From the NCBI GenBank assembly GCA_021108415.1, contig JAIOQX010000002.1, positions 310,001 through 374,000 of the forward strand: a stretch of DNA of 64,000 nucleotides. Reading direction: 5' to 3'. Position 1 is the first letter of the stretch. Each line of letters opens with the position of its first letter. The notes below the pieces were generated by a model. It did no database searches. It worked only from the letters and a program-made list of their open reading frames with translations, and was not told the origin of the DNA. The position numbers were made by a program, and so were the translations under genes. This DNA is from Acholeplasmataceae bacterium. GTDB taxonomy: Bacteria; Bacillota_I; Bacilli_A; Acholeplasmatales; Acholeplasmataceae. Below are positions 37,378-55,283 of this stretch, in pieces.

Positions 37378-40300
37378 TTAATTTGACCAAACTTCAATAT
37401 GGATAGGTTCCTCTGTATTTAAAACTAAATTCTTATCAATGATATATCCTGATTGTCTGTAACTATTTTGAGTTTGTTTATATGAAACACCTAGTCCATT
37501 AATTAATAGTTTTTCATCTCCATAATGATACGTGATCTTAATTGTCTTATCTTCAAATTGACTCGTAAAAGTTAATCCATCTTGTGCTTTAGTAATCACT
37601 GGGTCGATATGTAGGTCTTGATGATATTGACCAACACCTAAAATATGATGAATGATTTGGTGAATAAAAATACCTGGGCCAGATGAATATAATCTCCAAC
37701 CACCTTTAACTTTTATGTTTCCTTGTCTAACTAACTCGAAATCTTTTTTTGCTTCATATCGATTATTAAAGTCCGCGTCCGAACTAGAAAAATACATATT
37801 ACTTTGTCTAATTTCTGCGTTTTTTACATGTTCTTTCATTTGAATAGGTACAATTTGGAATATCGCATTATATGCTCTTTGAGATGCACCAATTTTTGCC
37901 ATGGATTCAATATATCTTATATGTGCATGCACATATTGAAGACCAATTTCTCTTCCAAAATTAGCTGCAGTTTCAGCTCTAACAAAATAAGTCTTTTTCC
38001 CACCTTCGTATTTTACAGCTGTATCCATGAGTCTCACGCCATCTGGATGCATAAAAATTTTATCAATTAGATTTATATAGTCATTCATGACTTCTTTTTC
38101 TGCAAGTTCTGAGATAAATGATCTTACAAATGGTAGTAATCTATATTTCAATCCAGTTTTTTGATCTCTTGGGTGTAGTAAATAACTTAATTGATTATTA
38201 TCTTCAAATACAACAAAACCAGAAGGAATACCATCTACAATCATATATTTTTTGTAATCTGCTTTAATATTTTTTGCAAGTGCTAACAACTCTTCAGATA
38301 ACTCTTTATCCTTAGATTCTAACTCAGCACCTAATAGATGCACTGATTCATAAAGTAGCGCTACTGTCCAACCCGATACCATCTTTGTCGTTAAATCATG
38401 ATTTGCTGGTTGTAGCGTATCATCCCAATCGCCTCCACCATATCGTGGTAGATACGTATTTGGTATAAATGATTCTTTTATGGTATTAATTTGTTTTTTG
38501 ATATGTTCAATTAGTCCATAGCTTTCAGTAAATTCATTTTTATGCATTGACATATAAGGCACTTTTTCATCCAATATAGAAAAATCAGAAGTTGCTTGTA
38601 GATAATACCCAAGTGTTCTTAGTGGCCAAATAATGATATCCCCATGCGCTTCATGAGCTTGAATTTGATAGAACTTACCAAACATAAACCATTGAGGAAA
38701 ATCACCATTTTCAATGAATTGTCTTTGATATACTTTAAGTAGGATTTCTCTTATTAAATCATATTTCCCTGCAGCTGCAAACAATTCAACAGGACCTTGG
38801 CATACATCTCTTGTTCCCCAAGCTGCACCATTATATTGTTCTAGACCATGTGGTGATGCGTAATGAACAAGCGCATTATGTGTATACCAAAACAATGTGT
38901 CATTAAGTTTGTTCATGTTTGCTTGATCATCTTTATGTGCTAATTCTGCTTGATTTAAAATTGATTTAAAATACTTAGTGCCTAATTCATCTGCTTGTTC
39001 ATAAGATAAATCGGATGCTTCAAATTCATCAAAACTTGCTTGAGTTTTTATTGAAATCTCACTTGAATCATTATATTTTAAGATAAATAATCCATGTTGT
39101 TCTTCAAGACCTAAAAAATCTGATTCTGAAATGATTTGTGCAGATTTGCCAATTGTCATCTTGTATTTTAAGTTAGGATACTTCATGGCTGCCATGGTTT
39201 TTCCTGATATGCTAAATAAAACACTATCTTCTTCTTGTTGATAAGTAATATCTCCCATATACTCATTGACATCTAATAAAATTTGTTGAGTTATGATAAA
39301 ATCGTATTTCTTATGGTTTTTAGAATATATCTTTAAAGATTGAGATGCTTTATGGATATCAACACTCACATCGACAATTAAAGCATCATCTTCAAATGCA
39401 TAATACCATCTTGTTGTTGCGCCACCCATTTCATAATATGATGGAATCGATAAGATATGATATTTGCCATCTTTTTTTATATAGATTCTTTGTCCAGATA
39501 TTTTTTGTACATTTAAAGGATTTCTTAAATCACCTAAAAATTTATTAAACGATGTATTACCTAATACGATGTGACTATTAAATATACCAAACATAAAGTT
39601 AGTTGTAGCCATCACATGATCACTTACATGCAAGATATCACCATGGATCATTAAATGTCCATGTGGTCTTTCAACTAATTGTTCTTTTTCTTTTAATACA
39701 ACATGGTGGTGATGGTCAGTAAAAAATGACAAAGTTTTATCTAAGTTTTTTTCAATATGTCTTTGATTTGGAAACAAAGCACTGACTTGTGTTTCTGTAA
39801 GATCATCACCATTTAAAACATGATATCGTTGATAAGTAGAATTTAGTTTGGATAAAGTTATATCTGATTCTATCTGGTAAGGCAACATATCAATATCAAT
39901 CATATCTTTAGTTTCACTGTTTAATCTTTCAGCTTCGTAATATCCATAAAATGAAAAATGAGCTTTTTTATTTATAGATATCTTTTCGCTTTGAATGGTT
40001 AAATATGAAAATTCATATTGTTTAATCACTGATTCCAATTTATCAATATATAAAGCTTCAGGTAATTGAGTAGATTTATATGATTTACCAAAAAACTGAA
40101 ATCCATCAGTTGAAAATCCGATATTATTAGAATAACTTCCTATTTGTAGATATTGTGGTGCACCTTGATTTTGTTTAGCTGATAAAGTATATCCATGATT
40201 ATCTTGTTTGACCTTATAATCAATATACTGAACGGTATAAGCTTCAGAAGATAGAACACTTGATTTATTTTGAATCGCTACATCTTGTCCATAAAATAGT

Positions 40301-40659
40301 TCTACATCTTGCGTTTTTTCAGACTCAAGTGTCACATGGATATCCCATTGAAATGCTCCAACGATTAAATCTAATTGATAGTTTATATCTTTAAAACGTC
40401 CTTTATATACAACCTTATCATCTAAAAATTCAACATGTGTCAAAACATCTCTACAAATAAGAGCAGTTGATTCAAAAGATCCGTTTATCTTAGTTCTCAT
40501 ATATACATTCATTAAAGATCCATCTAAAGCATTTCCTTTTAATAGATTAATTTGATAATCATGATATGAAACATCATATATATCTCCAGTTTCTAAAAAT
40601 CGAAAGGTTAACCCACCTTTATGGATTGTATTTAATTTCAGATTGTTTTTTATAATCAT
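37378..40659 (-). CDS. GH94 1,2-beta-oligoglucan phosphorylase
   Basis: The 1093-residue protein has the length and layout of the 1,2-beta-oligoglucan phosphorylase (SOGP) branch of GH94, longer than the 780-820 residues of cellobiose phosphorylase. A long beta-sandwich N-terminal half is followed by the (alpha/alpha)6 barrel with PHGLEQYNGAAWGTRDVCQG and then GGDWDDTLQPANHDLT. Asp747 in WDD is the expected general acid. SOGP releases alpha-glucose 1-phosphate from beta-1,2-linked glucans in the cytosol; there is no signal peptide. It overlaps GH3 as ATGA and ends the operon. Specificity is inferred from subfamily and context. Confidence 0.85.
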   Translation of the reverse strand: MIIKNNLKLNTIHKGGLTFRFLETGDIYDVSYHDYQINLLKGNALDGSLMNVYMRTKINGSFESTALICRDVLTHVEFLDDKVVYKGRFKDINYQLDLIVGAFQWDIHVTLESEKTQDVELFYGQDVAIQNKSSVLSSEAYTVQYIDYKVKQDNHGYTLSAKQNQGAPQYLQIGSYSNNIGFSTDGFQFFGKSYKSTQLPEALYIDKLESVIKQYEFSYLTIQSEKISINKKAHFSFYGYYEAERLNSETKDMIDIDMLPYQIESDITLSKLNSTYQRYHVLNGDDLTETQVSALFPNQRHIEKNLDKTLSFFTDHHHHVVLKEKEQLVERPHGHLMIHGDILHVSDHVMATTNFMFGIFNSHIVLGNTSFNKFLGDLRNPLNVQKISGQRIYIKKDGKYHILSIPSYYEMGGATTRWYYAFEDDALIVDVSVDIHKASQSLKIYSKNHKKYDFIITQQILLDVNEYMGDITYQQEEDSVLFSISGKTMAAMKYPNLKYKMTIGKSAQIISESDFLGLEEQHGLFILKYNDSSEISIKTQASFDEFEASDLSYEQADELGTKYFKSILNQAELAHKDDQANMNKLNDTLFWYTHNALVHYASPHGLEQYNGAAWGTRDVCQGPVELFAAAGKYDLIREILLKVYQRQFIENGDFPQWFMFGKFYQIQAHEAHGDIIIWPLRTLGYYLQATSDFSILDEKVPYMSMHKNEFTESYGLIEHIKKQINTIKESFIPNTYLPRYGGGDWDDTLQPANHDLTTKMVSGWTVALLYESVHLLGAELESKDKELSEELLALAKNIKADYKKYMIVDGIPSGFVVFEDNNQLSYLLHPRDQKTGLKYRLLPFVRSFISELAEKEVMNDYINLIDKIFMHPDGVRLMDTAVKYEGGKKTYFVRAETAANFGREIGLQYVHAHIRYIESMAKIGASQRAYNAIFQIVPIQMKEHVKNAEIRQSNMYFSSSDADFNNRYEAKKDFELVRQGNIKVKGGWRLYSSGPGIFIHQIIHHILGVGQYHQDLHIDPVITKAQDGLTFTSQFEDKTIKITYHYGDEKLLINGLGVSYKQTQNSYRQSGYIIDKNLVLNTEEPIHIEVWSN

Positions 40660-42808: not shown

Positions 42809-43768
42809 TTAGCAAGACTCTCTAATAATAATTTGTCCTTCTGGGTGCTTAACTTCATTTAATTTCTTATCTTTAATGAGATCAGAAAGTGCTTGTGCAA
42901 CACTTTTACCCCATTTTAAATGATCAATACCAATAGTTGTTAATTTAGGGGTTAAATATTCGCCTAAATAAATATTATCAAATCCCGCTAGTGCTATATC
43001 TTTAGGCACATGTATCTTCATCTCTCTAAGTGCTTTCATTAATCCAATTGCGGATTCATCATTCGCACAGTAAACAAAACGAGGTTTTTTCTCTTCTAGT
43101 CCAATTTGTTGACCGATTTGATACCCACCTTGAATCGTAAAGTCACCTTGATAGTACTTATGGTCGTTGATATTTTCATCTTTTAATGCTTGTTTAAATC
43201 CATCATATCGATGATTGTTGTTAAATGAATCATTTGGACCAGAAAGATATGCAAAATCTCTATAGCCTTTTTTAACCATCTCTCTAATGAAGTTATATAC
43301 AATACCTTCATTGTCGATAACAGATGAATAAATATTTTTACCTTCTATGATTCTGTCTAAGACAAATGTAGGAAAATCGTGAGATGCAAAGTTTTTTAAA
43401 CATTCATCAGTTAAATTATTATCAAAGATGATTGCACCATCTACTTGTCTTTCATTCAATAAGTTTTCTGATGATTTGCCTGAACTAACGATAATGTTAA
43501 ATCCGTTTTCTTGTAAATTCTGTCTAATACCTTCTAATACATCACTAAAGATTGGACCGCTAAATCCATAAACAAAAACTCCTATATTCCCAGTTTTTTT
43601 TGTTTTTAAATTTCTAGCAATTCCATTTGGATAATAGTTTAGTGATTTGGCTGCATCTAAAATACGTTGTTTTGTCTCTGGGTGTACACTAGGTAGGTTG
43701 TTTAGAGCATATGATGCTGTTGAAATGGATACACCAGCTTTTTTTGCGACGTCTTTTATTGTAGGCAT
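42809..43768 (-). CDS. LacI-family transcriptional repressor of the glycan locus
   Basis: The 319-residue regulator has the LacI helix-turn-helix TIKDVAKKAGVSISTASYAL (residues 3-22), the hinge helix around ILDAAKSLNYYPNGIARNL, and a periplasmic-binding-protein-like sensor domain. It is third in the operon it probably controls. LacI proteins bind palindromes with a central CG. GAAACGTTTC-type sites are present at two promoter regions of this locus (46598-46611 and 52561-52578), with a variant at 52649-52660. The inducer is likely a sophoro-oligosaccharide, by inference from neighbours. Confidence 0.9.
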   Translation of the reverse strand: MPTIKDVAKKAGVSISTASYALNNLPSVHPETKQRILDAAKSLNYYPNGIARNLKTKKTGNIGVFVYGFSGPIFSDVLEGIRQNLQENGFNIIVSSGKSSENLLNERQVDGAIIFDNNLTDECLKNFASHDFPTFVLDRIIEGKNIYSSVIDNEGIVYNFIREMVKKGYRDFAYLSGPNDSFNNNHRYDGFKQALKDENINDHKYYQGDFTIQGGYQIGQQIGLEEKKPRFVYCANDESAIGLMKALREMKIHVPKDIALAGFDNIYLGEYLTPKLTTIGIDHLKWGKSVAQALSDLIKDKKLNEVKHPEGQIIIRESC

Positions 43769-43772
43769 AAAG

Positions 43773-45380
43773 TTAATCTCCTATCTTTAATATGCATGAA
43801 AAATATGGGGGTAATACTACTTCTTTATCAAATACAAAATTCTGATAATTTGTATGTATGATTTCAAATTTTTCATGTGGTAGTTTGAATGATATATCAT
43901 GATCTTTAAATGAACAAATTATCAAAAATTTTTCCTGTTTATAGCTTCTGTAGTAACTAAAATGATCTTTATTATCTTTTTCATATAATTGGAAATCTCC
44001 TAACCTAAAAACTTCATTGGTTTTTCTAATTTGAAAAAGTTTCTTAAAATATGCAAATACACTTTGTTGATCAGCTAAATCTTTAGCTGCATTTAAGTCT
44101 TTATAGTTTGGATTGACACCCAACCAAGGTTCTTTATTGCTAAACCCTGCATAAAGCGTATCATCCCATTGAAACGGTGTTCTAGAATTATCTCTTCCTT
44201 TTGCATATATAGATTCCATAATATCTTTATGGTTGATGCCTTGTTTTTTTAAAATATCGTATATTTGTAAAGTCTCTATATCTTTATATTTAGAAATATC
44301 TTCATGTTTGATACCAGTCATCGCAATTTCTTCACCTTGATAAACAAATGGTGTGCCTTGCATACCATAGATTAATGTTGCAAGCATCATTGCACTATGT
44401 TTTGGATATAAAAGTGAACCATATCTGGTTAAAGCTCTTGGTTGATCATGATTAGCTAAAAACAATGCATTCCAACCTTGTTTGTAGAAGGTATGTTGAA
44501 CTTTATTAAATGTTTCTTTTAATTCTAGGACATCAAGCTTTTTTAAAGCCCATTTACCTTTGCCTGGAATCTCATCTAATCCGATATGTGAAAACTGGAA
44601 TACCATATCTAGATAAGGGTTATCCTCTGATGTTAGCTCTGATGATCTCTTAATTGATAAACCAGGAGTTTCTCCTACGGTCATGATATCTCTTGATTTA
44701 AAACAAGTCTCATTTAATTCTTTCAAGTAAGTTTCTAGATAAGGTCCATCTGCAAGCATTTTTTTATCAATATCTTTTCCAATCAAATCAATGACATCCA
44801 ATCTAAATCCATCAATGCCTAAATCTAGCCACATATTAATCATGTCATAGATTTCTTGTCGCATCTCTTTATGATGCCAGTTTAAGTCTGGTTGGGATTT
44901 GGCAAACAAATGAAAATAATAAGACTTACTTATTTCATCATATGTCCAAGCAGGTCCACCAAAAATCGATTCTATATCCGTTGGTTCATCTCTCCAAATA
45001 TAGTAATCTCTATATTTAGGGTCATTTGCCTTACTCTTTTTAAACCATTCATGCTCATCAGATGTATGGTTAATCACTAAGTCCATAATGAGTCTCATTC
45101 CTTTATCATGAACTTTTTGAATGAGTGATTTCATATCATCCATCGTACCAAATATCGGATTTATTTTATGGTAATCACTAATATCATAACCATTATCTCT
45201 CATGGGTGATTGATAGACTGGTGATAACCATATCACATCAACACCTAACGTTTTTAGATAATCAAGCTTTGATGCGATTCCATTAATGTCTCCAATGCCA
45301 TCGTTATTAGAATCTTTAAAGCTCAATGGATATATCTGATAGACAAGTGCATCTTTAAACCATTTTATTTTCTTTTCCAT
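43773..45380 (-). CDS. GH13 alpha-glucosidase (oligo-1,6-glucosidase-like)
   Basis: The 535-residue cytosolic enzyme starts KDALVYQIYPLSFKDSNNDG with the GH13 calcium-like motif. It has DLVINHTSDEHEWF, nucleophile Asp195 in GFRLDVIDLIG, acid/base Glu237 in TVGETPG, and the third aspartate in FLANHDQPRALTRYG. A valine after the nucleophile is typical of alpha-1,6-active members of GH13_31, whereas alpha-1,4 enzymes often have alanine. It is out of theme among beta-glucan enzymes and may deal with alpha-branches or a second substrate. It overlaps the upstream gene by 16 bases. Confidence 0.88.
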   Translation of the reverse strand: MEKKIKWFKDALVYQIYPLSFKDSNNDGIGDINGIASKLDYLKTLGVDVIWLSPVYQSPMRDNGYDISDYHKINPIFGTMDDMKSLIQKVHDKGMRLIMDLVINHTSDEHEWFKKSKANDPKYRDYYIWRDEPTDIESIFGGPAWTYDEISKSYYFHLFAKSQPDLNWHHKEMRQEIYDMINMWLDLGIDGFRLDVIDLIGKDIDKKMLADGPYLETYLKELNETCFKSRDIMTVGETPGLSIKRSSELTSEDNPYLDMVFQFSHIGLDEIPGKGKWALKKLDVLELKETFNKVQHTFYKQGWNALFLANHDQPRALTRYGSLLYPKHSAMMLATLIYGMQGTPFVYQGEEIAMTGIKHEDISKYKDIETLQIYDILKKQGINHKDIMESIYAKGRDNSRTPFQWDDTLYAGFSNKEPWLGVNPNYKDLNAAKDLADQQSVFAYFKKLFQIRKTNEVFRLGDFQLYEKDNKDHFSYYRSYKQEKFLIICSFKDHDISFKLPHEKFEIIHTNYQNFVFDKEVVLPPYFSCILKIGD

Positions 45381-46582
45381 TTGAGCACTTCCATTCCATT
45401 AATGATTGTGTGATGACTCATAAAAGCTTTATAAACTGATCTTTTTTTTACTGCATCTATCATCAGTAATATTAAGCCTTGATTAATTCCGTAATATCGA
45501 GGTGAAATCCATTTTTTTCCATCTTCCAAATTAAACGCATCATAAAAACCATATGGTCCATATAATCCATCAATATCTTTCATATCAAGATATGCTTGAT
45601 ATGAGATTTCTTTAGTAAATGGAAAAGATCCTAGCGCACTAGAAGGTGAGACTGTTCCATCTGTTCTTAATTTATCAAATACATTCGGTAAAGCATGAAA
45701 CACTCTATATCCATTTGGTGTGTCACTTGCGGTAAACCCGAAGAATGTTTTAGAAAATGTCTTATAAATATGTTGATGGTCAAGACTACATTTGATGTGA
45801 TTAAGTGTTGCAAGTCTAGCGTTTTCAAACCAAGAGATACCTTGTTGATCATAGATGTTTTCTAAGTCTAGGAATGCTAATGGAAATTGATACACAAATA
45901 ATGTATTTCCTGGGGTAATGATAAAATCTTGGTGATTATGTGTCGCTTTCATACGATCAAAATCATTATATAAATCAAGAGCTTCTTTTGGATTTTTATC
46001 CGCAACAAATAAATACATCATTAATTGTTCAGCAAACATATCCCATTGATGAATAAATCCTGGGATGTCTTTGATATAGTCTCCATCTTTGTTTGGATTA
46101 AAAGCCATGTGTAAATATTTTTTGTTGTTTCTTTCAAATATAAAATGTTTCCAATCAACACGTTCCATAATTTGATTAGCCAGAACTTCTACTTCATCTT
46201 TAAAATAAGATGAAACTGCAACCACACCACAAAGACAAAGTGATGTATCGATTGTAGAAATTTCATTTTTCTTATATCTTTCTGCTGTATTAAAATCTAA
46301 AAAATGAAAGAAAAACCCATGATAATTAGGTACATTATATAATAATGTTTTTAAAGTTAGATATGCTTGTTTTTTTGCTTTTTCAAAAGTTATATACCCA
46401 TTGTCTACTCCAATAACTAAGGAAGACAAATAAAATCCTGTTGATGCAATAGACGCAACTTCTAATCTTTGTGTATGATCAAGAGAAAGCCCAAAACCTT
46501 TTGAGTTTTCATCTAAATTTGTATATGTTTGAAAATAATTAAATATTCTTTTTTGTAAGTCATCTAAATTAGATAAATCCAT
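45365..46582 (-). CDS. GH144-like beta-1,2-glucanase, cytosolic paralogue
   Basis: The 405-residue protein belongs to the Glycoamylase/PF10091 fold family that includes GH144. Segments shared with the lipoprotein paralogue at 53928-55283 include GFGLSLDH, EVASIASTGFYLSSL, GFFFHFLDF, EISTIDTSL, SDTPNGYR and YGPYGFYDAFN. It lacks a signal peptide and is thus cytosolic. An exo-type role on imported oligosaccharides (release of sophorose) would fit, since some GH144 enzymes are exo-acting. The start at 46582 follows TGGGAG. It is the first gene of the LacI-controlled operon. It could instead act on another beta-glucoside. Confidence 0.72.
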   Translation of the reverse strand: MDLSNLDDLQKRIFNYFQTYTNLDENSKGFGLSLDHTQRLEVASIASTGFYLSSLVIGVDNGYITFEKAKKQAYLTLKTLLYNVPNYHGFFFHFLDFNTAERYKKNEISTIDTSLCLCGVVAVSSYFKDEVEVLANQIMERVDWKHFIFERNNKKYLHMAFNPNKDGDYIKDIPGFIHQWDMFAEQLMMYLFVADKNPKEALDLYNDFDRMKATHNHQDFIITPGNTLFVYQFPLAFLDLENIYDQQGISWFENARLATLNHIKCSLDHQHIYKTFSKTFFGFTASDTPNGYRVFHALPNVFDKLRTDGTVSPSSALGSFPFTKEISYQAYLDMKDIDGLYGPYGFYDAFNLEDGKKWISPRYYGINQGLILLMIDAVKKRSVYKAFMSHHTIINGMEVLKWKRK

Positions 46583-46597
46583 GATTTTCTCCCAAAA

Positions 46598-46611
46598 TTG
46601 AAACGTTTCGA
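46598..46611. promoter_or_regulatory. LacI-type operator in the divergent GH144/GH35 region
   Basis: TTGAAACGTTTCGA contains the perfect palindrome GAAACGTTTC (46600-46609). It lies just downstream of the minus-strand -10 and upstream of the plus-strand gene, so one bound repressor could control both. The sequence matches a second, longer palindrome before the large lipoprotein gene. Confidence 0.8.
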
Positions 46612-46622
46612 TACCTAATTCT

Positions 46623-46651
46623 ATTTTATATGATAAAATATAAAAAAACAA
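46623..46651 (-). promoter_or_regulatory. Promoter of the GH144-GH13-lacI-GH3-GH94 operon
   Basis: On the minus strand TTGTTT (46646-46651) and TAAAAT (46623-46628) are 17 bases apart. The palindromic operator lies in the initially transcribed region, a classic repressor position. Confidence 0.55.
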
Positions 46652-49012: not shown

Positions 49013-49045
49013 AAAAAGGTATAATCGATTTTGATTATACCTTTT
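49013..49045. terminator. Bidirectional terminator between GH35 and the large lipoprotein gene
   Basis: AAAAAGGTATAATC and GATTATACCTTTTT form a perfect 14-bp stem (49013-49046) with loop GATTTT. It has T-runs on both strands and so ends both convergent genes. Confidence 0.88.
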
Positions 49046-49083
49046 TTATTATATAACTTATTATGTATGATTAATGTATGTTT

Positions 49084-52000
49084 TTATTCTGCGTCAACAA
49101 AACTTACCATTGTTGCTAGTGTTGCATAAGTTCCAGTTAAATCTGAAGAAGGTACAGAAGCTATATTGAATGCAATATACTCATAGTCTCCCCAGAATGC
49201 GTCATCTAAAACGATTGTGCCAGTTAAATAACCAGTTCTCATCATAACTGTGTATGTATTGTGATCATAGCCGATATAAATAACTTTAATTTGATATCCA
49301 GCATCAACCACGATTGAGCCTTTACCATCAAATGAAGCTTTTGATAATACATTTGATGCTGCAAAACCTAAGTCAAATGCTGTAGTTCCAGTTGTAATTG
49401 ATGTTGCATTGTCATTGTAATAACCTTGTTGGAAGCTTAATGCTGTATCAACATGATCAACTAAAACTTCATCAAACATTGAGAATACTAATTGATTTGG
49501 TAATGTAGCTAATTCACCAGATATATCAGTTCCACCTGTTGTAGATGAAATATTAAATGCGATATATTGATAATCTTTATACATAGCTTCAGTTATTAAG
49601 ACTGCTTCACTGTAATCACCAGTTCTAAATAATACTTTATATCCTTCTTCTGCTGAATAAGATAAGAAGATTAATTTAACTTTATATCCAGTTTCTGGAG
49701 TAATGATTGTTCCAGCAGGAATAAACTGTCTAGGAACTACATCAGATGCTGCATATTGTTTAATGAATGAAGTATCACCAGTCGTAATTGAAGTTGCACC
49801 GCCACCCCAATATCCACTTGTAAATGTAAGATCATCGCGAACAAATGTTAATTGATTAACTAACGTATCTAACTCACCAGAAATATCTGAAGTAGGAGCT
49901 GTAGAGAAATTAAATGCGATATACATATCAGTTCCCCAGAAAGCATCATCTAATGTGATTGTTCCAGTTAAAGCAGCAGTACGGAAAGTTACTTGATAAT
50001 TTCCATATCCATCATAAGATAGATAAATTACTTTTAATGCATAACCATCAGCAACTACGATTTCAGAAACGCCATCAAAATATGCTTTAGATAAAACATT
50101 TGATGCTGCATATTTTTTATGGAAATCAGTATCGCCAGTCGTAATTGATGTTGCATTGTCTGCCCAGTAACCAGTTACTAAAGTGATTTCTTGGTCATAA
50201 TGAATCACTTGATTTGGATGCATATCAACATACATGTCGATATCTTCAGGAAGAAGAGCTGTTGTTTCATCTGTAGTTGTTACAATAAATCCTATAATTG
50301 CTTTATCTTCAGCAAATGTTGGATTAACCCAAAGTTGTTCTGTTTGATAATCACTTACATAAGATGCTGTATAAACTTGATCTGCAAATGTATAAACTAC
50401 ATAAGCAAACTTATAACCAGCAGGTACTTCAATTACTGTGTCTAAATTATAGAAAGCAGGAGTTAAAGGACTTGAGATTAAATGATTTGGAGAAGCTGTT
50501 ACTGATGTATCATCAGTCATCACATATCCATTTGTCCATTCAAGATCATAGTCAATATGATTATCTAATGTTCCAGTAGGATGATAAAGTGTTAACATAC
50601 CAGCAACTTCTGCTAGTCTTGCACTAATATCGCCTGTTGGTACAGATGAGATATTAAATGAAATATATTGATAATCTCCCCAGAATGATTCACTTACGTA
50701 AGTGTATGCAGCTGATGAATTGTTATTTCTATGAACAACTTTAAATCCATCGCCATCTCTTTCTAAGAAAATTACACGGAATTGATAACCATTTTCAATC
50801 ATGATTGAAGATCCAACAGGTAATAAACCTTTTGGAATTGGTGTAACAACTGCATAATTATTATACAATGCGTCTGTATCAGGAGAAACTGAAGTTGCTC
50901 CATCTGAGTAGAAACCTTGTGCAAATTCAAATGCTAATTCATCACCGTAATCTATATCAGCAGTTTTAGCGATTGAAACATTTTTGAAATATAGCTTAGT
51001 TAGAATATCATCTGCTCCAGTAAAGCCATCTTGATTTCTCATAGAACCAAACCAGAATTGTAGATTTCTATTCATAACTGTAGCATCTACAGCAACAGAG
51101 AAATCAAATGTATATGTATCCCATTCAGTTGTTAATGCTTGTGCAAAACTAATATTTTCTAAACCAACACCACCATTACCTTCCATTGCAACGATTATTG
51201 ATCTAGCAACGTCAGCTTTAGCTTGGAAAGTTAAACGATATTCACCAGCGAATGCTGCTAAATTTTGTACTTTAAATTGATTTTCCCAAATATTACCATC
51301 TACTGAGTCTACATTTGTAATATCAACTTCTACCACTTCATCAACAGTAGTAACTGTTAAGCCACCTCTAGTTGATTCATACCATGTTTCCCAACCCACA
51401 GGAACACCAGTAACAGCGTCTACATCAGCAAATCCTGGAATTTCAAATGCGTCAGCAACATACAATGTTCTAGTAAACGTAGTTGTTTCATTATCACTAT
51501 CAGTTACACTATATACAAATGTATATGTACCTTTTACAGCTGGAGAACCAACAACAAATGGTACTTCTGAAGTGTCAGTGTAAGTTACATCGTCTAATGT
51601 AAGTACATCTCTATCATCACCAACTGTTAAGCCACCTTTAATTAAAAAGTTCGTTGCACCAACTGGTAATAAGATATTAGTTGTTGCAGTTAATGTAGGT
51701 GCTTGGTTTTCTAATTCTGGACCAGCAACGATTGATACATTAGAAATATAAACTGTACCTAATACTGTTTGTTCAGCTGCAGGAACACCATCCACTTTAT
51801 GGAAAGTACCTAAACCAAATTGAAGTTCAACACCACCAGTTGAATCCATTGTTGTGAAAAAATCAATTGAAACTACTACATCCGATGTAGTAACATCAAC
51901 AACATGATTGTTAATTGGTTTCTTATCTAATCCGCCACCTTGAATATTAACCATCATCTTACGAGCTGCATCAGCTTTAACTGTAAAATTAAGTGTATAA

Positions 52001-52536
52001 GATTCAAATGCTTTTAACACTAATGTTTTTTGAGATAATTGAACATCCCACCAGTTATTATCCATAAGAATAGATTGTGCTGTAATATCTATTTCAGCAA
52101 CACCATTGTTTACAGAATAAGTAGCAGCAACGTCTTGAGATTCATTAACCCAAGTTGCCCAACCATTAAGGTCATCTGAGAAATCACCATTAACGAAACC
52201 AGCTAAACCCATAACAGATACAACACGTTGTTTGACTGCTTCGTTCCCAGCAGCATCTGATACTGTATAAACTACAACATAATCTCCAGCACGATTAACG
52301 TTAACTGTGTCTCCAGATACAACGATAGCGCTTGTTAAGTCACCATCAACATCATCTGTTGCACTAACGCCAGCCATTGGATCAAAAGCTTCACCTACAG
52401 AAATTTCAACTGTAGCTACACCAGTGATCACAGGTTTTACTGTGTCTGTATCACCAACTGGTTCTTCACCATCTTTACATGCAACAATTGCAAATAACAT
52501 GGTAAACATTAATAAAAATAAACTAATTTTTTTCAT
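49084..52536 (-). CDS. Large modular lipoprotein with repeat domains, putative glucan-binding
   Basis: The 1150-residue protein has a lipoprotein signal with lipobox FAIVAC (Cys about residue 20). An Ig-like domain follows (about 35-110, DUF5011-type: TDDVDGDLTSAIVVSGD). Next come a carbohydrate-binding-like jelly roll (about 112-275), a second Ig-like domain (about 285-365) and a second jelly roll (about 366-525). Five repeats of about 120 residues fill the C-terminal half, marked by GYWADNATSITTG, AASNVLSKA, VIYLSYDG, DDAFWGDYEYIAFN and SDLTG-like blocks. No catalytic domain is seen. It probably binds glucan at the cell surface. The start is set to the second of two adjacent ATGs because GGAGG is 5-6 bases from it. 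Confidence 0.8.
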   Translation of the reverse strand: MKKISLFLLMFTMLFAIVACKDGEEPVGDTDTVKPVITGVATVEISVGEAFDPMAGVSATDDVDGDLTSAIVVSGDTVNVNRAGDYVVVYTVSDAAGNEAVKQRVVSVMGLAGFVNGDFSDDLNGWATWVNESQDVAATYSVNNGVAEIDITAQSILMDNNWWDVQLSQKTLVLKAFESYTLNFTVKADAARKMMVNIQGGGLDKKPINNHVVDVTTSDVVVSIDFFTTMDSTGGVELQFGLGTFHKVDGVPAAEQTVLGTVYISNVSIVAGPELENQAPTLTATTNILLPVGATNFLIKGGLTVGDDRDVLTLDDVTYTDTSEVPFVVGSPAVKGTYTFVYSVTDSDNETTTFTRTLYVADAFEIPGFADVDAVTGVPVGWETWYESTRGGLTVTTVDEVVEVDITNVDSVDGNIWENQFKVQNLAAFAGEYRLTFQAKADVARSIIVAMEGNGGVGLENISFAQALTTEWDTYTFDFSVAVDATVMNRNLQFWFGSMRNQDGFTGADDILTKLYFKNVSIAKTADIDYGDELAFEFAQGFYSDGATSVSPDTDALYNNYAVVTPIPKGLLPVGSSIMIENGYQFRVIFLERDGDGFKVVHRNNNSSAAYTYVSESFWGDYQYISFNISSVPTGDISARLAEVAGMLTLYHPTGTLDNHIDYDLEWTNGYVMTDDTSVTASPNHLISSPLTPAFYNLDTVIEVPAGYKFAYVVYTFADQVYTASYVSDYQTEQLWVNPTFAEDKAIIGFIVTTTDETTALLPEDIDMYVDMHPNQVIHYDQEITLVTGYWADNATSITTGDTDFHKKYAASNVLSKAYFDGVSEIVVADGYALKVIYLSYDGYGNYQVTFRTAALTGTITLDDAFWGTDMYIAFNFSTAPTSDISGELDTLVNQLTFVRDDLTFTSGYWGGGATSITTGDTSFIKQYAASDVVPRQFIPAGTIITPETGYKVKLIFLSYSAEEGYKVLFRTGDYSEAVLITEAMYKDYQYIAFNISSTTGGTDISGELATLPNQLVFSMFDEVLVDHVDTALSFQQGYYNDNATSITTGTTAFDLGFAASNVLSKASFDGKGSIVVDAGYQIKVIYIGYDHNTYTVMMRTGYLTGTIVLDDAFWGDYEYIAFNIASVPSSDLTGTYATLATMVSFVDAE

Positions 52537-52560
52537 CATTTCCTCCTATTTTTTTGTTTT

Positions 52561-52578
52561 AATCGAAACGTTTCGATT
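52561..52578. promoter_or_regulatory. LacI-type operator before the large lipoprotein gene
   Basis: AATCGAAACGTTTCGATT is a perfect 18-bp palindrome between the promoter and the ribosome site. The core GAAACGTTTC is identical to that of the operator at 46600-46609. Confidence 0.85.
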
Positions 52579-52590
52579 ATAGAAACTTCT

Positions 52591-52612
52591 AATGCATCAT
52601 TTTCGATGCATT
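52591..52612 (-). promoter_or_regulatory. Hairpin in the leader of the large lipoprotein mRNA
   Basis: AATGCATC and GATGCATT form a perfect 8-bp stem with a 6-base loop. It is not followed by a T-run on the minus strand, so it is not an obvious terminator. It may stabilise the mRNA or help process it. Confidence 0.45.
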
Positions 52613-52639
52613 AAATGTCTTTTTTCTTATTATATTTTT

Positions 52640-52668
52640 AGTATACTTGAAACCGCTTTCTTTATCAA
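52640..52668 (-). promoter_or_regulatory. Promoter of the large lipoprotein gene with operator in the spacer
   Basis: On the minus strand TTGATA (52663-52668) and TATACT (52640-52645) are 17 bases apart. The spacer holds GAAAGCGGTTTC (52649-52660), a near palindrome of the LacI/CcpA type. This would let a repressor block polymerase binding directly, apart from the second operator downstream. Confidence 0.7.
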
Positions 52669-52685: not shown

Positions 52686-53909
52686 TTATTGATATTGTGA
52701 AACGGTTACCTCAAACATTTGCATATAAGCATTATTTACTGCTTCTTTAGCAATTAAAAGATCTTGATCAGTCATTGTTGATGGTTTATATTCAATATCA
52801 TCAATAGAGTAACCAGTTATCGTTTTAAACCACATAAGAGCTGTAACATAGCGTCCATAAGTGTTTAAGTGGTAGCCGTCACGATTCATATTATCACCAA
52901 CTACACTTGAGCGTACATTTTGAATTGCTGTGCCTGCAGGAATGATTTGTCTAAATGTTTCATCATTTAAAATCAAGTTTTGATTTACATTCATAATTGC
53001 TTCGTACATAGTCATTTGATCACGATCATATGTAGGAAAACCACTATGTGTAGAATTTTGAGCATAAGCCCATGTTTGATGCCACATAAATGTAGTATCT
53101 GTTAGTTTGTTTTCATTTACATAATCAACTAAATCATCTAAAAAAGGTTGATATGATTCTTCTACACCTGTTAATGGACTTGCTTGTTGCATAGTTATAA
53201 TATCCCATTGTTCATCTAATAGACCAATAAGTAAACTCTTATTGCCTTTATTTTCCCATTCATTATCAAAGTTTTTTTCATATCGATAACTTGATGTGCC
53301 ATTAGTGAATGTATTATAGTGAGTTTCTAGTGAAGAACCACCAATATAAAGATAAGCAAATGTTACATTTGTAATACCATAGTCAGCTGCAATTTCTCCT
53401 AAATAAGTCATTGCATCTTCACTAAAACTATTTCCGATTGCTAATACTTTTAAAGAATCACTATAATCTTTAACACCAGGAGTTGTTCCATCTCTTGTAA
53501 TTGACTTAACAGAAACGTATGCTGATGATGACATATCTTTACCCTTAATTCTAAGCATACTTTCACCAATCACACTACCTACAACGCTTAAATAACTGTC
53601 AGTAGATCTTTGGTTAAAGTTAATGTTTTTCATTGTTTCATCAACAACAAATTTACCATCTTCAACTTTACCAAATAAGTATTCTATTGAATCAAACTCA
53701 CCATCAATTAATACATGTTTTTCAATCGTTTCCCCAACATTAATTTCTAACATATAAGGAGATTCTAACGTACCTTCTCCAACAAGACCTACAACAGAAA
53801 TATCTATTGAGTCTGGTCCTTCATCTACAACTTCTTCTTCCTCTTTTGCGCAAGCCGCAAACATACCAAGTGATGCAACTAGCAGTAAAACCATCCAAAA
53901 CTTTTTCAT
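52686..53909 (-). CDS. DUF4886 SGNH-hydrolase-like lipoprotein
   Basis: The 407-residue lipoprotein has a signal with lipobox FAAC (Cys20) and an N-terminal Ig-like part (about 30-130). The DUF4886 SGNH domain (about 148-390) has block I SLKVLAIGNSFSEDAM with the nucleophile Ser and a C-terminal DGYHLNTYGRY block with the Asp and His. SGNH enzymes remove ester groups. As cyclic beta-1,2-glucans often carry substituents such as succinyl or phosphoglycerol, removing such a group is possible, but this is inference. It follows the GH144 lipoprotein gene by 18 bases. Confidence 0.78.
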   Translation of the reverse strand: MKKFWMVLLLVASLGMFAACAKEEEEVVDEGPDSIDISVVGLVGEGTLESPYMLEINVGETIEKHVLIDGEFDSIEYLFGKVEDGKFVVDETMKNINFNQRSTDSYLSVVGSVIGESMLRIKGKDMSSSAYVSVKSITRDGTTPGVKDYSDSLKVLAIGNSFSEDAMTYLGEIAADYGITNVTFAYLYIGGSSLETHYNTFTNGTSSYRYEKNFDNEWENKGNKSLLIGLLDEQWDIITMQQASPLTGVEESYQPFLDDLVDYVNENKLTDTTFMWHQTWAYAQNSTHSGFPTYDRDQMTMYEAIMNVNQNLILNDETFRQIIPAGTAIQNVRSSVVGDNMNRDGYHLNTYGRYVTALMWFKTITGYSIDDIEYKPSTMTDQDLLIAKEAVNNAYMQMFEVTVSQYQ

Positions 53910-53927: not shown

Positions 53928-55283
53928 CTATTCAACATTTAAAAATCCCAGGTTAATTAACCCTTGTCTAACATTTTCATTTTGCATGAAATATGTCCAA
54001 ATTAACTCAGATCGATAATTTTCAATCATGAGTAATGAAATACCTTTGTCAATACCTAAGTAATCCGAGTCATACCATGGTGTGATTGCAGCTATTGTTG
54101 GATTGTAAAATGAATCAACAGGACCTAAATTATAAGCATCTTTTAATCCATATTCACCTATTAGTCTTGAGTCATCGTAAAAATTCTGAACTGCCATTAA
54201 AGATTCATATTCTAAGTAATTAACTGAAGCAACCGCTGCATATGGTGCAATCGTTCCATTATGACTATTAGATTTAGCTGTTTGCGCACCATAAGCTCTA
54301 TATTCATTTGGTCCATCAGATGCTGATATACCCCATGAAGTTTCGCTATAAGTTACATATCGATCTGCATAATCTTGAGTATATAAATAATTTGCTCTTG
54401 TAGCCATCGTTGCATTGGTAAACCAATCGGTACCTTGATAATCTATAATATCTCTAAAATCAATAAATGCATGTGAGAATTGATGTTGAAATAATGATCC
54501 GTCATGTGTGTAGTAATACGGTCCAACAATTTCACCTGTGGTTGTTGATTCATAAGTTCCATAATAATTAACTTTAACTCTAGATTTAACTGTTTTATAT
54601 AATGAGTCATCTGTTGGATATGTGTCAGAACCTGCAGCAAGAACATATAAGATCATTTGTTCAGATATATGATCCCATGCGCCTCCAAATCCATCTTCTG
54701 GCTTATAGCCCATATAAAACATGTTATTACTATCGTTTACATACCAAGTCCAATCAACACCATCATAGATTGTATTTGCTAAATCTTTAACTGTGCCACC
54801 AAAATATTCAGCAACCACTAAAGCTCCTGCAATCATAAGTCCAGTATCGATTATAGAAACTTCAGAATTCCAAGCTCTAAGACCTGTAGACATATTTAAA
54901 AAGTGATAATAAAAACCATTTGTTCGCTCAAGAGTCAATAAATTTTCAAGAGTTTTTTGTGCTCTTTCTTGACCTTCTGCTTCTGTAATCCAACCATTTT
55001 CAACACCAGCAGGAATACTTGCTAATGAAAATCCAACTGAAGCTACTGAAGCGATAGTTGCATTTCCTGGGTATCTATCTCTTGATAGCCCATAACCTGG
55101 TGATCCTTCTTGATGATTGGTTTGTTCCCAAAAAAAGTTAAAAGCCAATTCTGCTTCGTTATATAATATTTCTTTTTGAACCTTTAGAGGGTCATCAACG
55201 GGAACTTCTGTTTCTTCTTTGTTGCACGCTGTTATGGTTACTAAACTCAGTAACAATAAAAGTAACAATAGTGTTTTTTTCAT
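53928..55283 (-). CDS. GH144-like endo-beta-1,2-glucanase lipoprotein
   Basis: The 451-residue protein has a lipoprotein signal with lipobox ITAC (Cys20) and then an (alpha/alpha)6 barrel of the PF10091/GH144 kind. Segments include EQTNHQEGSPGYGLSRDRYP, TIASVASVGFSLASIPAGVE, GFYYHFLNMSTGLRAWN, EVSIIDTGLMIAG and SASDGPNEYRAYG. GH144 members cleave beta-1,2-glucan, the founding enzyme being endo-acting. Its surface location fits initial depolymerisation before ABC import. It is often labelled 'glucoamylase family', but the alpha-amylase type of chemistry is not implied. It directly follows the second permease pair. Confidence 0.78.
   Translation of the reverse strand: MKKTLLLLLLLLSLVTITACNKEETEVPVDDPLKVQKEILYNEAELAFNFFWEQTNHQEGSPGYGLSRDRYPGNATIASVASVGFSLASIPAGVENGWITEAEGQERAQKTLENLLTLERTNGFYYHFLNMSTGLRAWNSEVSIIDTGLMIAGALVVAEYFGGTVKDLANTIYDGVDWTWYVNDSNNMFYMGYKPEDGFGGAWDHISEQMILYVLAAGSDTYPTDDSLYKTVKSRVKVNYYGTYESTTTGEIVGPYYYTHDGSLFQHQFSHAFIDFRDIIDYQGTDWFTNATMATRANYLYTQDYADRYVTYSETSWGISASDGPNEYRAYGAQTAKSNSHNGTIAPYAAVASVNYLEYESLMAVQNFYDDSRLIGEYGLKDAYNLGPVDSFYNPTIAAITPWYDSDYLGIDKGISLLMIENYRSELIWTYFMQNENVRQGLINLGFLNVE

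Follow-up and report, generated by a model that had tools for sequence, protein, structure and literature searches.

Beta-1,2-glucans, both cyclic and linear, are products of many Gram-negative bacteria. Among the described systems for the capture of glycans at the cell surface, the closest to the one reported here are the Bacteroidota surface glycan-binding proteins (SGBPs) of the SGBP-B or SusE/SusF type, i.e. lipoproteins encoded in glycan loci that consist of a string of beta domains resembling immunoglobulin (Ig) domains and carbohydrate-binding modules (CBMs) and that lack an enzyme domain. A Gram-positive example of beta-glucan capture at the surface is BpGH16MLG of Blautia producta, which carries four CBM4 modules (PMC10318527); these modules are part of an enzyme. 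Here, we describe a lipoprotein of an Acholeplasmataceae bacterium (assembly GCA_021108415.1) in which comparable modules are found on a separate, non-enzymatic protein, followed by five C-terminal repeats of an unclassified family. It is encoded in a stretch of 64,000 nucleotides (the window; contig JAIOQX010000002.1, positions 310,001 to 374,000), and all coordinates below refer to this stretch. We consider it probable, at roughly 60 %, that the protein is a surface lipoprotein capturing beta-1,2-glucan and that its repeats represent a new carbohydrate-binding module for the substrate of DUF4886 hydrolases.

The lipoprotein gene (49084..52539, minus strand) encodes 1150–1151 amino acids (aa). 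The usual start yields 1150 aa, the length given in an earlier note made by a model from the sequence of the window alone, and an N-terminus, MKKISLFLLMFTMLFAIVAC, with a signal peptide and a lipobox (AIVAC, 52477..52536, minus strand) recognized from the sequence, the lipobox cysteine being C20. The same note had placed two Ig-like and two carbohydrate-binding-like domains in the N-terminal half and no enzyme domain anywhere, and this is what a Pfam scan of the full protein returned: two Bact_surface_Ig-like (9e-22) and two CBM_4_9 domains (1e-13) between residues 37 and ~527, and no enzyme domain, for which reason an enzyme activity of the lipoprotein was rejected. All four domains are encoded on the minus strand, i.e. 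Ig-like domain 1 (PF16403, residues 37–108, 52213..52428; Pfam), CBM4/9 domain 1 (PF02018, residues 114 to ~271, 51724..52197; Pfam, with its strands seen in the structure model), Ig-like domain 2 (residues ~276–361, 51454..51711; Pfam and structure model) and CBM4/9 domain 2 (residues ~370–527, 50956..51429; Pfam, model and Foldseek), the last of which matches Rhodothermus CBM4-2. The core CBM4/9 domains scored 52.2 bits against PF02018 (gathering cut-off 25.9), the match being limited to these two domains, while a NCBIfam scan of the lipoprotein gave no matches. In the predicted full-length structure the protein forms nine beads, nearly all beta (pLDDT 83.9; the pTM of 0.37 leaves the arrangement of the domains uncertain), and the CBM4 structures 1gui and 2y6k as well as the Bacteroides SGBP-B structure 7kwb were among its top Foldseek matches. 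The protein is therefore lipidated, non-enzymatic and Ig/CBM modular, as judged from the lipobox, Pfam and Foldseek, which are the features of the SGBP-like class. The earlier proposal of a SusD/E-type analogue holds for function, where SusE/F or SGBP-B come closest, but not as membership: SusD has a helical fold containing tetratricopeptide repeats, whereas the lipoprotein is predicted to be nearly all beta, and no SusC, SusD or TonB family was found in the scanned open reading frames (ORFs) between 37378 and 63955. Unlike the Bacteroidota proteins, the system in the window operates without an outer membrane and without a SusC/SusD partner, relies on import by an ATP-binding cassette (ABC) system, and carries repeats that are unrelated in sequence.

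The glycan can be proposed from the neighbouring genes. A protein resembling 1,2-beta-oligoglucan phosphorylase, SOGP (glycoside hydrolase (GH) 94 superfamily; 37378..40659, minus strand), has 5h3z as its best PDB match, over its full length (3e-239), and the closest PDB match of a PF10091 lipoprotein (53928..55283, minus strand) is 8xul (1.5e-58), i.e. the GH144 endo-beta-1,2-glucanase XcSGL (PMC12102758). The locus thus combines an SOGP with a GH144-type endo-beta-1,2-glucanase. In addition, the GH35 enzyme IALB_1185 of Ignavibacterium, whose gene belongs to a beta-1,2-glucanase cluster, has already been characterized (PMC8861115). Because of these two matches and the GH35 precedent, the assignment of the cluster to beta-1,2-glucan utilization, which the earlier note had also made, is sound as homology. 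The gene order is SOGP, GH3, LacI, GH13 and PF10091, all on the minus strand, then GH35 on the plus strand, followed by the lipoprotein, DUF4886, PF10091, two ABC permeases, DUF5696, an NHL-Yip1 protein, two further permeases and a solute-binding protein. The PF10091 protein upstream of GH35 (45365..46651, minus strand; Pfam) is a second GH144-like protein. The DUF4886 gene (52686..53909, minus strand) encodes a repeat-less lipoprotein of the SGNH clan (PF16227) with catalytic-type GNSFS and RDGYH motifs, aligning with PDB 4i8i over 254 residues. The GH13 protein (43773–45380) may have the alpha-1,6 link of alpha-1,6-cyclized beta-1,2-glucan as its target (PMC11228985).

The C-terminal half of the lipoprotein is made up of five related repeats of about 120 residues, all on the minus strand and delimited by pairwise alignment and domain scan: R1 (residues 531–662, 50551..50946), R2 (663–780, 50197..50550), R3 (781–899, 49840..50196), R4 (900–1030, 49447..49839) and R5 (1031–1150, 49087..49446). 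In pairwise alignments, every pair except R2–R3 exceeded 500 of 500 shuffles, R2–R3 scoring 39 where shuffled sequences averaged 32. Identities were 59 % for R3–R5, 45 % for R3–R4, around 35 % for R1 with R3–R5 and around 25 % for R2 with R4 or R5. R1, R3, R4 and R5 are clear members, and R2, a divergent subtype kept at array position 2 elsewhere, is by its sequence a genuine member of the family. The blocks by which the earlier note had defined the repeats fit only in part: the GY(W/Y)xxxATSITTG opening is exact in R3–R5 alone, with GFYSDGATSVSP in R1 and GYVMTDDTSVTA in R2, and the SGEL-like closing block is lacking in R2 and only weakly recognizable in R1 and R5. Its statement that the family was not recognizable has stood, as neither Pfam nor NCBIfam holds a family for the repeats. 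They match no CBM Pfam model, and the lack of a PF02018 profile match led us to reject them as further copies of the CBM4/9 domains of the core. Profile A1, built from 42 repeats, retrieved no sequence from the PDB, and a PHROGs comparison gave no family but only isolated weak matches, e.g. phrog_1537 at 4e-4 in 1 of 42 members. The profile thus hit no family with an unrelated role, the outcome that the earlier note had named as a refutation, and every match in the genomes belongs either to a DUF4886 hydrolase or to a lipoprotein from a locus of this type.

This distribution is the strongest lead to the function of the repeats. A search with the repeat region found matches in 9 of 61 relatives, to which profile A1 added one (G008), and DUF4886 is present in all 10 repeat-bearing relatives vs 4 of the 51 others. 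Class-wide, DUF4886 occurs in 13/13 repeat-positive genomes vs 13/382 others and SOGP in 9/13 vs 22/382, and in a phylum-wide sample repeat matches were confined to the class. DUF4886 and SOGP are themselves linked, SOGP being found in 14 of 26 genomes with DUF4886 vs 17 of 369 without, which amounts to a functional prediction for DUF4886 in its own right. In other species the repeats form a C-terminal module of the enzyme: they follow the DUF4886 domain, in one to seven copies, in G028 (twice), G031, G043 and G054 as well as in G048 and G025, where the genes are split or partial, and recur in DUF4886-repeat proteins of the wider class (G078, G086, G116, G277, G325 (twice), G363 and G237). The lipoprotein of the window shares this module with the DUF4886/PF16227 hydrolases and differs from them in having no DUF4886 domain, PF16227 being matched in the product of the adjoining gene instead. 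Therefore, an unclassified repeat domain is tied exclusively to DUF4886, and the treatment of the repeats in the earlier note as part of the scaffold needs correction: they are a module of DUF4886 enzymes elsewhere, and several lipoprotein orthologues at SOGP loci lack them.

A bond this tight would also be expected if the repeats were protein–protein docking modules on a scaffold that tethers DUF4886 to the membrane, possibly together with the glucanases, in the manner of a cellulosome. No genome without DUF4886 was found to have repeats, a repeat-less DUF4886 protein is the immediate neighbour of the lipoprotein in the window, G021 and G050, and five tandem copies would suit a scaffold with several docks. 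We nevertheless regard docking as quite unlikely, since the whole array is fused to DUF4886 itself elsewhere, where self-docking would be pointless, no dockerin-like partner domain was seen on the neighbours by Pfam, and DUF4886 and the adjacent glucanase already have lipoprotein signals of their own. DUF4886-repeat proteins occur in varied contexts, and tandem modules at the C-terminus are a common means of anchoring secreted proteins; the repeats could accordingly bind the cell's own surface, i.e. a lipoglycan or another envelope polymer, keeping the protein or DUF4886 cell-associated. This is improbable given that several DUF4886-repeat proteins, like the lipoprotein described here, have a lipobox of their own, and that the genome of the window has repeats at this locus alone and not on its other Ig/CBM lipoproteins.

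Two side observations concern DUF4886-repeat genes in other genomes. G028 is a partly lost locus: it has no SOGP, and at C1:908796-910141 a LacI orthologue lies beside a 111-aa lipoprotein remnant; the genome also retains an operator-preceded DUF4886-repeat gene. In G043 and G048, a lipoprotein of 854–859 aa that belongs to no known family adjoins the DUF4886-repeat gene and LacI (L032 5647-8226, L033 5965-8529); for the 859-aa protein, neither Pfam nor the PDB gave a match, and none of the other large neighbours proved homologous to it.

The core and the repeats are separate parts of the lipoprotein, the repeats tracking DUF4886. Of 61 relatives, 11 encode an orthologue of the core (E<1e-100), and SOGP is present in every one of them. 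The protein ends past the second CBM, without repeats, in G007, G023 and the Acholeplasmataceae metagenome-assembled genome (MAG) JAAYKO, the one match in a contig scan with the full protein and a locus that also lacks DUF4886. The CBM core is doubled within one frame of 938–941 aa in G010 and G032. G237 mirrors the window, with PF10091, a repeat-less lipoprotein and a DUF4886 protein bearing five repeats, and G050 has a plain core lipoprotein near SOGP and a DUF4886 plus repeat lipoprotein 450 kb off. In a tree of 68 repeats, those at position 2 of the lipoproteins of the window genome (G000), G021 and G050 grouped with the DUF4886 repeats at position 2 of G325, G025, G043, G048 and G237 (support 0.96), and those at position 4 of G000 and G021 with the position-4 repeats of G025, G325, G043 and G048 (support 0.83). 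Position 1 also grouped across hosts, with a support below 0.8 for the joint clade, while positions 3 and 5 were partly mixed. As positions cluster across hosts, the five-repeat array is an old, ordered unit that moved between genes, having been exchanged between the enzyme and the lipoprotein. Two further lipoproteins at such loci, one in G008 and a giant one in G277, have a single repeat each; these repeats belong to different clades of the tree, which suggests that additional transfers took place independently. Of note, the lipoprotein orthologue of G021 (L034; 77 % identity) is split into three frames and its DUF5696 gene into two, and the DUF4886-repeat gene of G048 has an internal stop; in both cases decay or an assembly error would explain the broken frames.

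The regulatory sites connect the same genes. As far as its sites are concerned, the doubly regulated promoter that the earlier note gave the lipoprotein gene is confirmed: a promoter-like site on the minus strand (TTGATA-17-TATACT, i.e. -35, 17 nt and -10; 52640..52668) has within its spacer a catabolite-responsive element (cre)-like site fitting the CcpA consensus (52647..52661, plus strand; 0.76 such sites expected by chance per window), and a putative operator, the perfect 16-bp palindrome ATCGAAACGTTTCGAT of LacI type (52562..52577), lies directly before the AGGAGG of the gene. A perfect 9-bp inverted repeat, TAATGCATC-N6-GATGCATTA (52590..52613), between promoter and operator may bind a third regulator or form a hairpin. 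The 1.78-Mb genome contains three sites for the palindrome at up to two mismatches, vs none for the reversed control: the one above, a copy with one mismatch (46597..46612) before the PF10091 gene 45365-46651, and a third 3.7 kb past the end of the window (C1:377748). The TTG start of that PF10091 ORF (46651) is upstream of the operator copy, and the true start is probably further downstream. The palindrome is a likely binding site for the LacI-family regulator encoded in the locus (42809..43768, minus strand; Pfam), for which it would serve as operator. It recurs exactly or with one mismatch in G050, G043, G048, G021, G008, G007, G237, G025, G028, G325 and JAAYKO, before the lipoprotein, DUF4886, a DUF4886-repeat gene or a gene adjoining one of these, and with two mismatches in G031. 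Orthologues of the regulator are present in most palindrome-bearing genomes at 52–83 % identity (38 % in G325), and the operator precedes the DUF4886-repeat genes of G043, G048, G050, G028 and G325 even where these are distant from the glucan locus. A bidirectional terminator-like hairpin (49013..49046) follows the lipoprotein and GH35 genes.

The fold of the repeats gives a hint in another direction. R3 was modelled by AlphaFold with a pLDDT of 96.9 as a mainly beta domain with short helices. A Foldseek comparison with the PDB gave nothing below an E value of 0.04, and its top matches, with TM-scores around 0.2, are meaningless. Against viral models the single significant match was a phage protein (BFVD A0A8S5PM33; TM-score 0.63, 1e-4, 18 % identity), followed by weaker matches to tail-fibre-like models and one phage GDSL-lipase model. 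Similar beta domains presumably occur in the tails of Firmicute phages and in secreted SGNH proteins, which we take as a lead only and not as a test. The repeats might thus be generic surface spacer or adhesion modules, kin to the beta domains of phage tail fibres and without a specific role in glucan use, and a copy number ranging from 0 to 7 would suit such modules. That reading is unlikely, as the repeats are confined to DUF4886-bearing genomes with a strong SOGP association, their distinct, position-conserved subtypes point to selected, non-interchangeable roles, and the glucan-locus operator sits before repeat genes. The likeness to phage tail-type domains is one of fold without a sequence match in phage records, where tblastn with two repeats (one query being approximate in its first few residues) returned only noise.

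We favour a surface lipoprotein capturing beta-1,2-glucan, with repeats specific for the DUF4886 substrate. The Ig-CBM-Ig-CBM core would be the conserved, locus-specific part that binds beta-1,2-glucan, a ligand we infer from context, and the repeats would bind the DUF4886 substrate, most likely beta-1,2-glucan with acyl or similar substituents of the kind that Gram-negative bacteria attach to their osmoregulated periplasmic glucans. The array would raise avidity and keep the decorated polymer close to the membrane, where the separate DUF4886 lipoprotein could strip the substituents and the GH144-type enzymes cleave the chain, before the ABC system takes up the oligosaccharides and SOGP, GH3 and GH35 degrade them. 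In other lineages the array would act in cis on DUF4886, while here, on the adjoining lipoprotein, it would serve the enzyme in trans. For most of the characterized SGNH families, the reaction is the removal of acyl groups from carbohydrates or their addition (PMC9487903). Osmoregulated periplasmic glucans are often substituted, O-succinyl being the most widespread group and phosphoglycerol a known one (PMC4726272, PMC3818809). A more specific version, in which DUF4886 would be an esterase that strips acyl or phospho substituents from beta-1,2-glucan and the repeats a new CBM family specific for the glucan so decorated, with the same array working in cis or in trans, is tentative and rather doubtful. 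Separately, the orthologous locus of G007 (L064 7852-9684) encodes a 610-aa glycerophosphodiesterase protein (GDPD, PF03009) between the lipoprotein and DUF4886, a gene that would fit phosphoglycerol removal and hints at phosphoglycerol-decorated glucans.

Several points weigh against the favoured reading. The fold of the repeats has no solved relative, so that a binding site is not transferable by homology, and conservation of the aromatics Y10, W11, Y52, Y67 and F95, which are W, Y or F in 90–98 % of repeats and which we count in favour of glycan binding, may reflect core packing. The repeat-less lipoproteins of the G007, G023 and JAAYKO loci indicate that the repeats are not essential to the role of the core. 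A clear SOGP is missing in four repeat-bearing genomes of the class (G028, G116, G325 and G363), so that the repeats may have a ligand other than plain beta-1,2-glucan. Finally, the co-occurrence counts ignore shared ancestry, and DUF4886 is listed as an SGNH family without known activity (PMC9487903).

By its sequence, the lipoprotein would be an SGBP-like multi-CBM lipoprotein, what is new being the link of its repeats with DUF4886 and the passage of the array between enzyme and lipoprotein. An entire repeat array has proved exchangeable between an enzyme and its neighbour, and two uncharacterized families, the repeat and DUF4886, gain one testable function. For the biology of these organisms, the locus suggests that beta-1,2-glucans are handled in wall-less monoderm bacteria by a surface lipoprotein of the SGBP kind.

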